Of a stretch of DNA of 64,000 nucleotides, positions 8,882 through 50,692 are shown in pieces (position 1 is the stretch's first letter; each line of letters begins with the position of its first letter). Under the pieces are notes generated by a model. The model worked only from the letters and a program-made list of their open reading frames with translations. It did no database searches and was not told the DNA's origin. The DNA is taken from positions 27,617 through 91,616 of the forward strand of contig CACWOZ010000007.1 of the NCBI GenBank assembly GCA_902762655.1, in the 5' to 3' direction. This DNA comes from an uncultured Bacteroidia bacterium (lineage in GTDB: Bacteria > Bacteroidota > Bacteroidia > Bacteroidales > UBA932). A program made the position numbers and the translations under genes.

Positions 8882-8915
8882 AAAGGTCCCCCGACCAAAT
8901 GGCCGGGGGACCTTT
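8882..8915. terminator. Bidirectional factor-independent terminator between fimbrial operon and tRNA-Val
   Basis: A perfect 12-bp stem (AAAGGTCCCCCG with CGGGGGACCTTT) closes a 10-nt loop that can itself pair further. Both flanks provide A/T ends, so it can stop the fimbrial operon (+) and the tRNA-Val transcript (-). Confidence 0.85.
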
Positions 8916-16884: not shown

Positions 16885-19851
16885 ATGAAGAGAATCCTTA
16901 CTCTCACAACAATGCTCGTCCTGAATCTGACGGCCTTTGCACAAGGCTATCAGGTCAAAGGTATCGTAGTCGATCCCCTGGGCCCCGTGTTTGGAGCCAC
17001 GGTCCTGGAGCAGGGAACCACCAATGGTGTGTCCACGGGCATCGACGGCGATTTTGTCTTCACCGTTTCCGGACCGGAAGCGATCGTGGAAGTCAGTTGC
17101 ATCGGCTATGGCACCCAGACGTTCAAGGCGTCCGAAATGCCTGCCACCATCACACTTTCCGACGACACCACTTTCCTCGACGAGGTTGTGGTGATCGGTT
17201 ACGGTTCACAGAAGAAAAAAGAGGTCACCGGTTCTGTCGCTTCCATTAAGAGCGAGGATTTCAATGCCGGTGTCAAGACCAACCCTATGGGGCTCCTTCA
17301 GGGCAAGGTCGCAGGTCTGAACATCATCAAGACCACCTCCGACCCTACCAGCACCGGATATAATATCCAGATCCGAGGCTTCTCCACCCTTGACAAGGGC
17401 GCGGGAACATCTCCTCTGTTCATAGTCGACGGTGTGCCCGTGAGCAACATAGACAACATCTCCAGCGATGAAATCGCTTCGATGGATGTGCTCAAAGATG
17501 GCTCCGCTGCCGCAATCTACGGCACCCGCGGAACCAACGGCGTCATCATAATCACCACCAAGCGCGGCGAGAACTTCGAGGATGTGGCCAACACACATGT
17601 TGAGTATTCAGGATACGCCTCTGTTTCCGTCAAGAACGGCGACCTCGGCATGGCGACTCCTGAAGAGTACCGCAATCTTGCCGAACTCAGCGGCGGCATG
17701 GTGAAACCTTCGCTCTATACCGATGCCGAAGGCAATACCTATAATACCGACTGGCTCAAGGAAGTGACACGCGCGGCCGCCATAGCCCATAACCACAATG
17801 TGGCTATCGTGGGTTCATCACGCAAGTTCAACTATCGCGCGTCGGTCAACTATAAGAATGCCGAGGGTATCGCCCGTAACACCAACCGCAACGAGATGAT
17901 CGCCAAGATTGCCGCCGGCCAGAAAGCTCTCGACGGCTGGCTCGATCTGCAGTACGACATGTCCTACATGCACTACCGCAACGATTACTTCTGCGGAGAT
18001 TTTAAGTATGCCTCGCTGCTCAATCCGACCTATCCCATCTACGATGCAAGCACTGCCAACGGCTACTATTTCCCTACTGAAACCGGCGCGGTGAACCCTG
18101 TCGAGAACATGAACCGGAAGGAATCCTACGGCGACGGCAACTACTTCCGCGGAAGTGTCAAGGCCACGGTGAACATCAAGCCGGTGGAAGGCCTGAAAAT
18201 CAACGCATTCGGCGCAATGGAAGAGGGCGACAACCGTAGTTTCTCCTACAATCACGGCGTCAATACCGATCTTTCCAATTCCGGTACCGCTTCCCGCGGA
18301 GGCAACTTCAACTACAGCCGTCTGCTGGAAATAACCGCCGACTACGTGCACAGTTTCAATGGTCACAGTCTCGCCCTTGTCGGAGGTTTCTCCTGGCAGA
18401 ACTTCCTTTATGACGGAGCTGACATCTCCAACAAAGGATTCCCTACCGATGATGCCAAGTATTACCAGATAGGCAACGGTGACGCTACCAAGCAGTATCT
18501 GAATGTCAGTTCTTACCGCAATTCCAATACCCTGGCAGCTCTGTTCGTACGTGCCAATTATAATTATAATGATAAGTACCTTCTCTCCGCTTCGGTCCGC
18601 CGCGAGGGCTCTTCCCGCTTCGGTGCCAACCACAAGTGGGGTCTCTTCCCGGCAGTAAGCGCTGGCTGGCGTATCAGTGGCGAAGACTTTATGAAGGATG
18701 TGGCGTGGGTGAACGACCTCAAACTGCGTGCAGGTTTTGGCGTTACCGGCAACAACCTTGCAAGCGACCTCCGTTCCATAGAAATGCTCTCCAACGGGGG
18801 CACCTTCTGGTACAACGGCCAGTATGTTTATACCTATGCCGTCGCCCAGAACGTCAACCCCGATCTCAAATGGGAGAAGAAGTTCGAGTACAACTTCGGT
18901 GTTGACTACAGCCTTCTGGACAACCGCCTTTACGGAAGCCTGGATGTGTACTACCGCCACACCGCCGACCTGCTCTGGGACTATGAAGTGCCTACTCCTC
19001 CCTATCAGTTCCATACGCTGCTTGCAAATGCCGGGCAGATGGACAGTTACGGCGCCGAACTCTCGCTCAGTTATGTTGCCGTCAAGAAGGATGCCCTCAC
19101 CTGGACAACGACTCCTACCATCTCCTTCAACCGCAACTATATCACCCGCCTGTCCGACCCTGAGAAGGGCTTCAACTACAAGGAAACCACTTCCGGCGGC
19201 GTAGGTGAGAACGGTATCATGAACACCAATACCCAGATACTCATCGAAGGCCAGCCCGTCGGTGCATTCTACGGCCTCGACTTCGCAGGTTTCAAGTCCG
19301 ACGGCACTTGGATGTTCAATACTCCCGAGGGCGGTGTGGTTTCCGGTGCAAATGCCACCGAGGGCCATCGCCAGGTGATAGGTAACGCCCAGCCTCTGTT
19401 CACTTTCGGATGGAACAACAACATCCGCTACAAGAACTGGGACGCATCTCTCTTCTTCCGCGGAGTTTTCGGCAACAAGATCCTGAACCTCACCCGCTGG
19501 GCATACGGCCCTCAGGACTCCCAGACCTTCAATGTGTTCATGAAGGATATCGACGGTGCCAACACCGTCCTTTCCGATAAGGCGCACTTCTCCAGTTATT
19601 ATCTGGAGGATGGCTCCTACATCAAACTCGACAACCTTACCATAGGTTATACTTTCAACCTCAAGGAGAACAAGTTCATACGTTCCGCGAGGGTTTATGC
19701 AACCGGCCAGAACCTGCTGACCATCACCAGGTACAGCGGCCAGGATCCCGAAGTCAACACCACCGGCGTATGGGATGCAGGTATAGACTGGTGCTCATTC
19801 TATCCAACCGTGGCTACCTTCCTGATCGGTGTCAACATCAGCCTTTATTAA
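16885..19851 (+). CDS. susC: SusC/RagA-family TonB-dependent outer-membrane transporter (starch)
   Basis: 988 residues. Signal peptide MKRILTLTTMLVLNLTAFAQ; residues ~22-95 are the carboxypeptidase-like beta-sandwich (VKGIVVDPLGPVFGATVLEQ), then a TonB-box region and the plug domain starting VIGYGSQKKKEVTGSVASI, with IRGFSTL, PLFIVDGVPV and IYGTRGTNGVIIITTK, the standard SusC motifs. The remainder is a 22-strand beta-barrel ending in an aromatic/Leu-rich final strand (VNISLY). It should form the pore of a SusCD pedal-bin complex and move malto-oligosaccharides with energy from TonB. SusD follows after 12 nt. The gene symbol is used for the family role; orthology to Bacteroides susC is inferred from the operon content. 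Confidence 0.95.
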   Translation: MKRILTLTTMLVLNLTAFAQGYQVKGIVVDPLGPVFGATVLEQGTTNGVSTGIDGDFVFTVSGPEAIVEVSCIGYGTQTFKASEMPATITLSDDTTFLDEVVVIGYGSQKKKEVTGSVASIKSEDFNAGVKTNPMGLLQGKVAGLNIIKTTSDPTSTGYNIQIRGFSTLDKGAGTSPLFIVDGVPVSNIDNISSDEIASMDVLKDGSAAAIYGTRGTNGVIIITTKRGENFEDVANTHVEYSGYASVSVKNGDLGMATPEEYRNLAELSGGMVKPSLYTDAEGNTYNTDWLKEVTRAAAIAHNHNVAIVGSSRKFNYRASVNYKNAEGIARNTNRNEMIAKIAAGQKALDGWLDLQYDMSYMHYRNDYFCGDFKYASLLNPTYPIYDASTANGYYFPTETGAVNPVENMNRKESYGDGNYFRGSVKATVNIKPVEGLKINAFGAMEEGDNRSFSYNHGVNTDLSNSGTASRGGNFNYSRLLEITADYVHSFNGHSLALVGGFSWQNFLYDGADISNKGFPTDDAKYYQIGNGDATKQYLNVSSYRNSNTLAALFVRANYNYNDKYLLSASVRREGSSRFGANHKWGLFPAVSAGWRISGEDFMKDVAWVNDLKLRAGFGVTGNNLASDLRSIEMLSNGGTFWYNGQYVYTYAVAQNVNPDLKWEKKFEYNFGVDYSLLDNRLYGSLDVYYRHTADLLWDYEVPTPPYQFHTLLANAGQMDSYGAELSLSYVAVKKDALTWTTTPTISFNRNYITRLSDPEKGFNYKETTSGGVGENGIMNTNTQILIEGQPVGAFYGLDFAGFKSDGTWMFNTPEGGVVSGANATEGHRQVIGNAQPLFTFGWNNNIRYKNWDASLFFRGVFGNKILNLTRWAYGPQDSQTFNVFMKDIDGANTVLSDKAHFSSYYLEDGSYIKLDNLTIGYTFNLKENKFIRSARVYATGQNLLTITRYSGQDPEVNTTGVWDAGIDWCSFYPTVATFLIGVNISLY

Positions 19852-25157: not shown

Positions 25158-25206
25158 TACCCAGCCGGAGGCCGGGCAGCTAAATGGTTGATTAACAGCA
25201 AATTGC

Positions 25207-25243
25207 TGAAAACAAATCGGCGAAAAAAGACGATTTGTTTTCA
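25207..25243 (+). repeat. Perfect 13-bp inverted repeat between the two GH13 genes
   Basis: TGAAAACAAATCG (25207-25219) and CGATTTGTTTTCA (25231-25243) are exact complements with an 11-nt A-rich loop. A smaller palindrome CAGCAAATTGCTG precedes it (about 25196-25208). No T-run follows, so an mRNA-stability or processing hairpin is more likely than a terminator. The 25158-25279 gap holds nothing else. Confidence 0.6.
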
Positions 25244-25279
25244 GGAAAACATTGATATACAATAAGTTAAATGCCCGAT

Positions 25280-40441: not shown

Positions 40442-40489
40442 TTTGTTTTTTGATATCATTTTTTGCTATATTTGCAAAAAATGATGTCA
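40442..40489 (+). promoter_or_regulatory. Autoregulated promoter-operator of the toxin-antitoxin module
   Basis: TTTG (40442-40445), 21-bp spacer, TATATTTG (40467-40474). ATCATTTTTTGC (40455-40466) and GCAAAAAATGAT (40474-40485) are perfect inverted repeats; with one mismatch the symmetry extends to 40451-40489. The dyad is centred exactly on the -7 box, so antitoxin bound there would block polymerase. A further TGATATCA word lies just upstream (40431-40438) and again inside the left arm. Confidence 0.75.
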
Positions 40490-49780: not shown

Positions 49781-50692
49781 TCAGTATTCTATTTTGGAGA
49801 GGAACAATGCGTGCCCCGGCACCGACTCCCCGGCAAGACTGCGGTGTGTTGCCCGTCGCGGAGAGATTGGTCCGTCTGCCGGCAGGACGAGCCCGCCGAA
49901 CTTTTCGACACTGCGCTTTCCGCGCCCCACATCTATCAGCGTTCCCACGATCGCCCGCACCATGTTCCGCAGGAACCTGTCCGCCGCTATCCGGAAGAAC
50001 CAGTACTGCGGAATCTGCGAAGTCGGAGCCGCTCCCTCCACCGCGGCGGGCAAAGGGCCCGTCTGTGTCCCGCAAGGGGACCCCAGTACGGGCATTGCCC
50101 GGCCGTATGACGCCTTCGCAGGAGCGGCTCCGACTTCTCCCATAATCTGAACGTGCGACGGCGTATACGGCTGCCAGAACGCCTCGAAAACGGTGCACAC
50201 CGATGTCTTGTTGTCTGCCCCGGCCTTCTCGAAACACGAAAAATCATGCGTCCCTACCAGCAGCGAAGCCGCAAGGTTCATGGCATCGAAATCCAGCCCC
50301 GGATAACCGCATTGCCAGGAAAAAGCCTCCACGAAAGGATCTTTGCTCCTGTGTATGAAGTAGGTATATTCCCGCCTCACGGCATCGAAACGCGCATGGA
50401 AATCGTGGCCTGCCTCGGAGATGGAATTTACCACCACAGTGCGGGGAAGGATGGCATTTAATTTGTAGCGGAAGTCTTCTGCCGCAAGGCCTGCGGGGCC
50501 GTCGAAACACGCTACGTAACCGATTGCATTCACGCCTGTGTCCGTACGTCCCGCCCCGATCACCGGAGTCTCCGTGCCCAGAATCCTGCCCAGGGCTTCT
50601 TCGAGGCATTGCTGGACCGACGGGTCGGAGGGCTGGCGCTGCCAGCCGCGGAAGAGAGCACCGGCATATGACAATGTAATGGAATAACGCAT
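49781..50692 (-). CDS. truA: tRNA pseudouridine(38-40) synthase with an in-frame ~40-residue insertion
   Basis: 303 residues; TruA is normally ~245-265. MRYSITLSYAGALFRGWQRQ, the catalytic Asp51 in GAGRTDTGVNA, FHARFDAVRREYTYFI and RFLRNMVRAIVGTLIDVGRG identify it. Between the strand SHVQIMG and YWFFRIAADRF, where the family goes straight on, residues ~186-225 (EVGAAPAK... to ...AAVEGAAPTS) are added; they are encoded by a DNA segment with perfect 17-bp inverted ends. The insertion is in frame and both flanking parts are intact, so the enzyme is probably active. The start ATG (50692) is 6 nt after a TAACTTTG box. Confidence 0.93.
   Translation of the reverse strand: MRYSITLSYAGALFRGWQRQPSDPSVQQCLEEALGRILGTETPVIGAGRTDTGVNAIGYVACFDGPAGLAAEDFRYKLNAILPRTVVVNSISEAGHDFHARFDAVRREYTYFIHRSKDPFVEAFSWQCGYPGLDFDAMNLAASLLVGTHDFSCFEKAGADNKTSVCTVFEAFWQPYTPSHVQIMGEVGAAPAKASYGRAMPVLGSPCGTQTGPLPAAVEGAAPTSQIPQYWFFRIAADRFLRNMVRAIVGTLIDVGRGKRSVEKFGGLVLPADGPISPRRATHRSLAGESVPGHALFLSKIEY
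50019..50137. repeat. Palindrome-bounded element inserted in truA (119 nt)
   Basis: GAAGTCGGAGCCGCTCC (50019-50035) and GGAGCGGCTCCGACTTC (50121-50137) are perfect inverted repeats of 17 bp. Inside, CGGGCAA (50047-50053) pairs with TTGCCCG (50095-50101) and GGGGACCCC (50076-50084) is itself palindromic, so the whole unit can fold into a long branched stem. No ORF for a transposase; if mobile, it is non-autonomous. Confidence 0.75.

Follow-up and report, generated by a model that had tools for sequence, protein, structure and literature searches.

Short palindromic repeats that lie within unrelated protein-coding genes, often in frame and apparently tolerated by the proteins that carry them, have been described in Rickettsia as the Rickettsia palindromic elements or RPEs (PMC10969869). 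Palindromes in coding DNA have also been reported from nematomorph mitochondrial genes, wherein perfect inverted repeats with identical arms extend over conserved coding sequence and template switching has been suggested (PMC6649704), and in yeast genes template switching between inverted repeats is reported to homogenise the arms and to invert the spacer between them (PMC8604942). Small dispersed hairpins form a further set of comparisons. Among these, the MITEs have terminal inverted repeats that are common to all copies. The REPs, for their part, are 20–40 bp in length and extragenic by name (PMC3733652). How protein-tolerated palindromes originate and persist has, to our knowledge, stood as an open problem since the Rickettsia elements. 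The Bacteroidales family described here is a second such system, from another phylum; a search of the open-licence literature by titles and starts of abstracts, which is weak evidence, yielded no description of elements of this kind in Bacteroidales.

The present locus lies in a window of 64,000 nt (i.e., the whole stretch of DNA analysed) from an uncultured member of the Bacteroidales, wherein the open frame of truA runs straight through a 119-nt palindromic segment (50019–50137). In our assessment, this segment is probably one copy of a small mobile hairpin family in a group of uncultured Bacteroidales—selfish, RPE-like hairpins that are tolerated as protein inserts, with their stems matched and their loops flipped by template switching during replication. 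The likeness to the RPEs lies in a dispersed palindrome occurring in frame in unrelated genes: 20 of the 21 copies in the own genome, i.e., the one that holds the window, lie in open frames of 19 genes, 13 of which match their gene family on both sides of the insert. In contrast, RPEs encode a conserved peptide whereas the Bacteroidales elements use all six frames, and the RPE description makes no mention of site-specific arms or inversion and concerns a different phylum (PMC10969869). The two are set side by side by their descriptions. With the nematomorph repeats, for which template switching has been proposed, the family has in common coding palindromes with matched arms; those inverted repeats, however, appear to consist of local sequence, whereas here a conserved dispersed core lies between the arms (PMC6649704). 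Template switching at quasi-palindromes likewise offers a parallel in the homogenisation of arms and the inversion of spacers in coding DNA, but there it is a mutational process acting on short inverted repeats, whereas here it would shape the stems of a dispersed family (PMC8604942). REPs and MITEs are also small dispersed hairpins without a gene of their own, but the arms of the Bacteroidales copies vary by site, which sets them apart from MITEs. The copies of the own genome are intragenic, unlike the extragenic REPs with their length of 20–40 bp (PMC3733652).

The initial annotation of truA had drawn attention to perfect 17-bp inverted ends, to internal symmetric blocks (CGGGCAA/TTGCCCG and a second pair) and to a stop-free passage of the frame through the segment. 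All three hold: the outer arms, of 17 nt each, are 100% complementary (17 of 17 pairs) across an intervening 85 nt, both blocks are found and the 303-codon frame is intact (Table 1). A perfect 17-bp pair has a chance expectation of about 4e-4 in 64 kb with uniform bases, and of the four inverted repeats that a window-wide scan listed at spacers of up to ~120 nt, the runner-up to truA scored 14. Folded as a single strand, the truA segment reaches -48 kcal/mol as against -27.3 ± 2.9 for shuffled sequences (z -7.3, 0 of 200). The encoded protein matches TIGR00071 (1.5e-43, above the cut-off) and PF01416 (1.9e-28), the latter with a match that spans the insert. In a sequence alignment with E. coli TruA (PDB 1dj0), one block ends at query residue 163 (chain residue 167) and the next begins at query residue 230 (chain residue 183), with 66 residues between them in the query versus 15 in E. 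coli; the aligned blocks bordering the insert are presumably strands of the enzyme. The truA of the related genome G120 is 91% identical to that of the own genome (G000), and a stretch of G120 stops inside truA at the same loop (L083), perhaps owing to an assembly break at an insertion. Elsewhere in the window, terminator-like perfect short inverted repeats with loops of 7–11 nt are seen at 8882–8915, 25206–25244 and 40455–40485.

Table 1. Features of the truA locus and of the palindromic segment within it, in window coordinates
Feature	Position	Strand	Basis
Host gene truA (303 aa), encoding tRNA pseudouridine(38-40) synthase, interrupted in frame	49784..50692	-	Translation; TIGR00071; PF01416; no second copy found in the genome
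Outer arm, site-specific, partner 50121-50137; arm register class B	50019..50035	+	Inverted-repeat search; register comparison
Conserved 75-nt core, antisense to truA	50037..50111	+	Covariance model match, E 5.2e-18
P1 5' strand, pairs with 50095-50103, one mismatch in the truA copy	50045..50053	+	Structure model
P2 5' strand, pairs with 50084-50093 around a bulged T	50057..50065	+	Structure model
P3 stem, GCAA tetraloop	50068..50080	+	Structure model; coordinates counted on the sequence
P2 3' strand	50084..50093	+	Structure model
P1 3' strand	50095..50103	+	Structure model
Core 3' tail and long spacer ending in CGCA; similar tail in the truA copies of G098 and G226	50104..50120	+	Copy comparison
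Outer arm, inverted partner of 50019-50035	50121..50137	+	Inverted-repeat search

What recurs in the own genome is the interior of this palindrome: about positions 34–102 of a 146-nt truA query are repeated there, and matches to the 17-bp ends alone were found only at E ≥ 0.08. The arms were accordingly discarded as the unit of repetition, the strong own-genome matches being to the core instead. The expectation of many copies with the same ends, raised at the outset, is thus borne out for the copies and fails for the ends, which vary by site and match only each other. The element comprises a core of 75 nt and measures about 85–120 nt with its spacers and arms. A covariance model (R1) built on 16 aligned copies recovers 21 at E < 1e-4 in the own genome (2.18 Mb), which together with the further copies in relatives supports the proposal of palindromes dispersed in frame through genes. 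Within the window, the model finds the truA copy only (C7:77653–77727, i.e., window 50037–50111), so that the membership proposed for two other window genes is not supported. The core string that these were thought to have in common, GTCGGAGN{4,5}TCC, does exceed chance (4 vs 0.39), but two of the four occurrences are the truA arms themselves; the strings at 18379, 37685 and 41715 had no surrounding inverted repeat with a score of 12 or more in the window scan.

Among 61 genomes of the genus two carriers were found, and among 400 genomes at least 17, the own genome being counted in both scans; the larger scan used stricter filters and scored at most 12 candidates per genome, so that its copy counts, and perhaps its carrier count, are lower bounds. 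For distribution beyond the genus the sole source is an exact pattern scan of the genome collection, which sees the main core variants only; it returned 51 stretches under 12 accession prefixes, all 51 of which are titled Bacteroidales or Bacteroidia. Fourteen of the 51 refer in their titles to a ruminant stomach (yak, buffalo, goat, sheep), and the rest bear names such as RUG257, which we take to denote rumen projects, or else state no source. All sequences come from genome assemblies, most of them metagenomic; since the family is present in genomes that were assembled separately, an artefact of assembly is improbable. A search with R1 of 60 further stretches and the earlier loci gave 127 copies from 17 genomes once overlaps were removed, those from other genomes being the best-scoring ones rather than a random sample; overlapping loci of one place (e.g., L046 644, L162 4591 and 3301) were excluded by hand, and L112 of G120 was left out, being identical to L030 of the own genome over the compared stretch. 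The copies are dispersed over unrelated loci: outside its own ortholog group, a core has a partner of at least 95% identity in 55 of the 127 cases and of at least 90% in 99, with values up to 100%, the ortholog grouping being imperfect, with same-site pairs possibly missed (perhaps L055/L070). Thus, the truA core is 98.5% identical to one in another gene of G167 (L062), and at two sites of G167 (L141 and L142) the compared core is identical. Tandem copies of the core, two or three per site, were noticed at L139, L152, L156 and L159.

In about half of the copies the outer arms are complementary to each other and unique to their site. When the left flank was compared with the reverse-complemented right flank in 126 of the 127 copies (one has no flanks), 44% reached an arm score of at least 9 as against 1.7% of re-paired flanks, and 17% reached at least 13 as against 0.2%. 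A further 45% have no clear arms (score below 8), and hence the arms are dispensable for persistence, a point against the account favoured here. Arms in the sense of shared terminal repeats are ruled out, their sequence varying between sites. At orthologous sites, the sequence enclosed by the arms is found in either orientation, several times with the same arms. Twenty-five orthologous sites account for 94 of the 127 copies, some of these in tandem at one site, and 10 of the 25 show both orientations, the pairwise orientations being without conflict. At six of these 10, the best opposite pair has at least 20 nt of arm in common, shared lengths in opposite pairs being 17 + 13 nt in ileS and 17 + 11 in folC; among 3000 unrelated pairs drawn at random, 0.03% attain 20 nt, with a maximum of 22, the choice of the best pair per site favouring the observed side. 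The arms at the remaining four are not clearly shared and these may represent independent insertions, truA included, whose arms are unlike one another in G000, G098 and G226. A site-specific invertase is disfavoured, since no arm sequence is common between sites.

We attribute these patterns to the formation of a hairpin during replication, which would make the polymerase switch template between the two arms; one arm might thereby be corrected to the sequence of the other, even where codons are conserved, and the spacer might be inverted. Template switching would bring matched arms, compensatory changes in the stems and flips under a single process. The metK gene is instructive in this regard: both arms overlie conserved codons that are native to the gene (those for IRH and MPYLR), and a codon that reads GAT, GAG or GAA in G000, G120, G084 and G327 is CAG in G226, G167 and G173, a change that lengthens the arm outward. 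Such arms over conserved codons together with the codon change point to a rewriting of the flank and not to its duplication, at least in metK. Matched arms and this codon change are thus the marks of arm homogenisation that are seen, from which we infer the event itself. Empty sites in relatives, in support of the initial annotation, are seen in several genes. ileS is without a core-family element in G378, G226, G166, G103, G171 and G327; metK gives a single uninterrupted match in 7 of 12 genomes (G378, G374, G329, G327, G171, G103 and G166); the folC loop is short in G327; one further gene is empty in G000 and G374 and has copies in G120 and G378; and the N-terminal part of rsmE is empty in G000 and has a copy without clear arms in G120. 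Some relatives are thus empty and second copies exist, contrary to the counter-case envisaged at the outset, wherein all relatives would have the insertion and no second copy would be present. At the ileS site, another repeat occurs in G171, a short palindrome in G226 and a second hairpin family, described below, in G084 and G329. The palindrome of G226 (L173; 21 nt, GGTGAAGGCACTGCCTTCACC) lies where others have the element and is possibly a remnant of loop loss.

Arrival at new sites lies outside this template-switching account; candidates for it would be an enzyme supplied in trans, whether nuclease or transposase, or else a template switch in trans. Two observations count against template switching as the source of the arms, namely the two fixed registers in which arms occur, which plain template switching does not predict, and an arm pair in one gene that appears to combine a native with a new arm, as expected under duplication. 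According to the latter alternative, which is possible though on the unlikely side, the inserting element joins one side of a nick and the free end copies the adjacent target backwards, such that an inverted duplication of the flank is created at birth, with decay of the arms and inversion following later. It would fit an inter-arm distance that is mostly 83–91 nt and the mirror relationship of the two registers, each of which has its long spacer on a single side, as well as the further gene mentioned above, wherein the left arm corresponds to sequence at the empty site and the right one appears to be newly made (L117/L171 vs L043/L167). However, nothing is duplicated in metK, both of whose arms are native, and insertions without arms are seen in ileS of G120 and G167 and in the N-terminal part of rsmE of G120. 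No target-site duplication was seen by eye in the empty-site pairs of the further gene and rsmE.

It is less probable that the family consists of ordinary elements of the MITE or REP type, mobilised by a Y1 (RAYT-like) transposase whose gene lies elsewhere, and we regard such an enzyme as no more than a lead. The hairpin shape and the dispersal of the copies would be in keeping with this, and Y1_Tnp is detected in 11 of 11 carriers against 2 of 8 non-carriers tested (Fisher p 0.001), but these are weak matches, the best at 5.5e-9, and kinship among the carriers confounds the association. Moreover, terminal repeats are not shared between copies, those of the own genome are intragenic, and at 14 of the 24 listed Y1 places the surrounding ~1.5 kb contained 0 core copies, so that no transposase among these is tied to the family. 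The 14 loci concerned (L281–L294) hold Y1 (HUH) transposase-like genes with open frames of ~300 aa.

Two other repeats were noticed in coding sequences. The second hairpin family has a constant loop, TCCGCTACCGCCACGC...CTCAAAAAACTTCC, within variable arms that by eye are often perfect and measure 10–22 bp. It occurs at six sites of the own genome with at most one mismatch (L273–L278; 0 in a reversed-pattern control) and in ileS, folC, truA, metG and other genes of relatives (L183, L191, L212, L087, L059, L076, L244, L267); by eye, a motif recurs among its arms in several genes, and the arms may thus be inherited in part. A third repeat, CATTCCGAGCGNAGCG, occurs at 16 sites of the own genome with at most one mismatch (L295–L310; control 0) and is found in rsmE of G000 and also, in G171, within truA and ileS. 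One might go further and regard such hairpins as a class of selfish DNA without a dedicated enzyme, modules that spread, nest in one another's loops, exchange loops within stems already present and grow site-matched stems purely by template switching during replication, with protein-coding constraint acting as their shield against deletion. We hold this to be decidedly unlikely as a whole, though consistent with it are related folC arms that by eye enclose different loops in different species, a family-2 loop that by eye lies within a family-1 frame at L076, and the lack of a family-linked transposase among the 14 Y1 places.

The internal stems of the core covary, three nested stems being kept by paired changes. 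In the 16 copies, 13 of 22 pairs have changed on both sides against a shuffled mean of 6.0 (0 of 500 shuffles), and the count of further pair types was equalled by 13 of 500 shuffles. Among 114 distinct rows, 22 of 25 pairs have changed on both sides, with 329 such cells vs 82 (0 of 500), in an alignment that, having been fitted to the model, is biased in its favour; kinship also inflates covariation counts of this kind. This covariation, together with conserved unpaired positions and a GNRA-like tetraloop, would suit a structured RNA selected within mRNAs for a regulatory or processing role, which we nevertheless judge to be highly improbable. In 11 of the 20 own-genome frames the core has the orientation of the gene, whereas in the other 9 it is antisense; orthologous copies flip, and the hosts are functionally unrelated. 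A search of the window against Rfam at the gathering threshold gave nothing but two tRNAs, the best match at the truA segment being a weak 19.3 bits against a threshold of 43. Covariation is, furthermore, also expected from template switching (PMC8794818).

The own-genome hosts, recognised by NCBIfam or Pfam, are ileS, a GH88 hydrolase, aroD-aroA, a GH3-type glycosidase, mutL, truA, apbE, uvrD, metK, a glycosyltransferase (with two copies), a PG_1098-like protein, purL, a SAM methyltransferase, hemW, murB, purM, rsmE, aroB and dapF. Curated cut-offs are passed by 13 of the 19; those below are ileS, the GH3-type gene, apbE, purL, hemW and aroB, some of the loci being cut. Two-sided family matches, with aroD and aroA counted as two sides of one frame, are found in all except uvrD, the glycosyltransferase, the PG_1098-like gene, the methyltransferase, purM and dapF, which have one-sided matches. 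The 21st copy (L049) lies outside a weak family match (49 bits vs a cut-off of 85). Intragenic counts cover the own genome only. A chimeric protein query returned 10 matches there, i.e., two halves of each of five genes split by the insert, and no spare uninterrupted ileS, rsmE, aroB, metK or truA in this 96% complete genome. The core is read in five combinations of frame and orientation in the own genome and in the sixth in folC of G120, G170 and G171; with all six frames in use, there is no common peptide. Read from the open frames, the insert would be translated and presumably placed in tolerant loops, the elements presumably being selfish and purifying selection on the host gene probably removing frameshifts and stops. 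That they are instead very small introns or translational bypass elements, removed at the level of the RNA or the ribosome, is hardly credible despite a strong hairpin and single-copy hosts, of which ileS, rsmE, aroB, metK and truA are essential in other bacteria, and was rejected because frames are kept: in 13 of 13 genes one open frame matches the host family before and after the insert (chance ~6e-7), and all six frames are open in 51% of the 127 cores as against 19% of Markov sequences, the copies sharing descent and not being independent.

The sites that are occupied or empty, the matched arms and the flips between related species should allow insertion, arm formation and inversion to be ordered on trees, and the process could be tested in E. 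coli. These patterns suggest that a replication error process may repeatedly rewrite parts of core enzymes, including a conserved residue of MetK, and annotators should expect such inserts in the proteins of these Bacteroidales. The gene names folC, metG, atpG, trmB and GH127 come from reading translations and not from a family search. At one locus (L054, G040:C30), a putative trmB and a putative GH127 gene each have a diverged copy of the core and an in-frame palindrome, CGTCATTGCCGGC...GACCGGCAATC.
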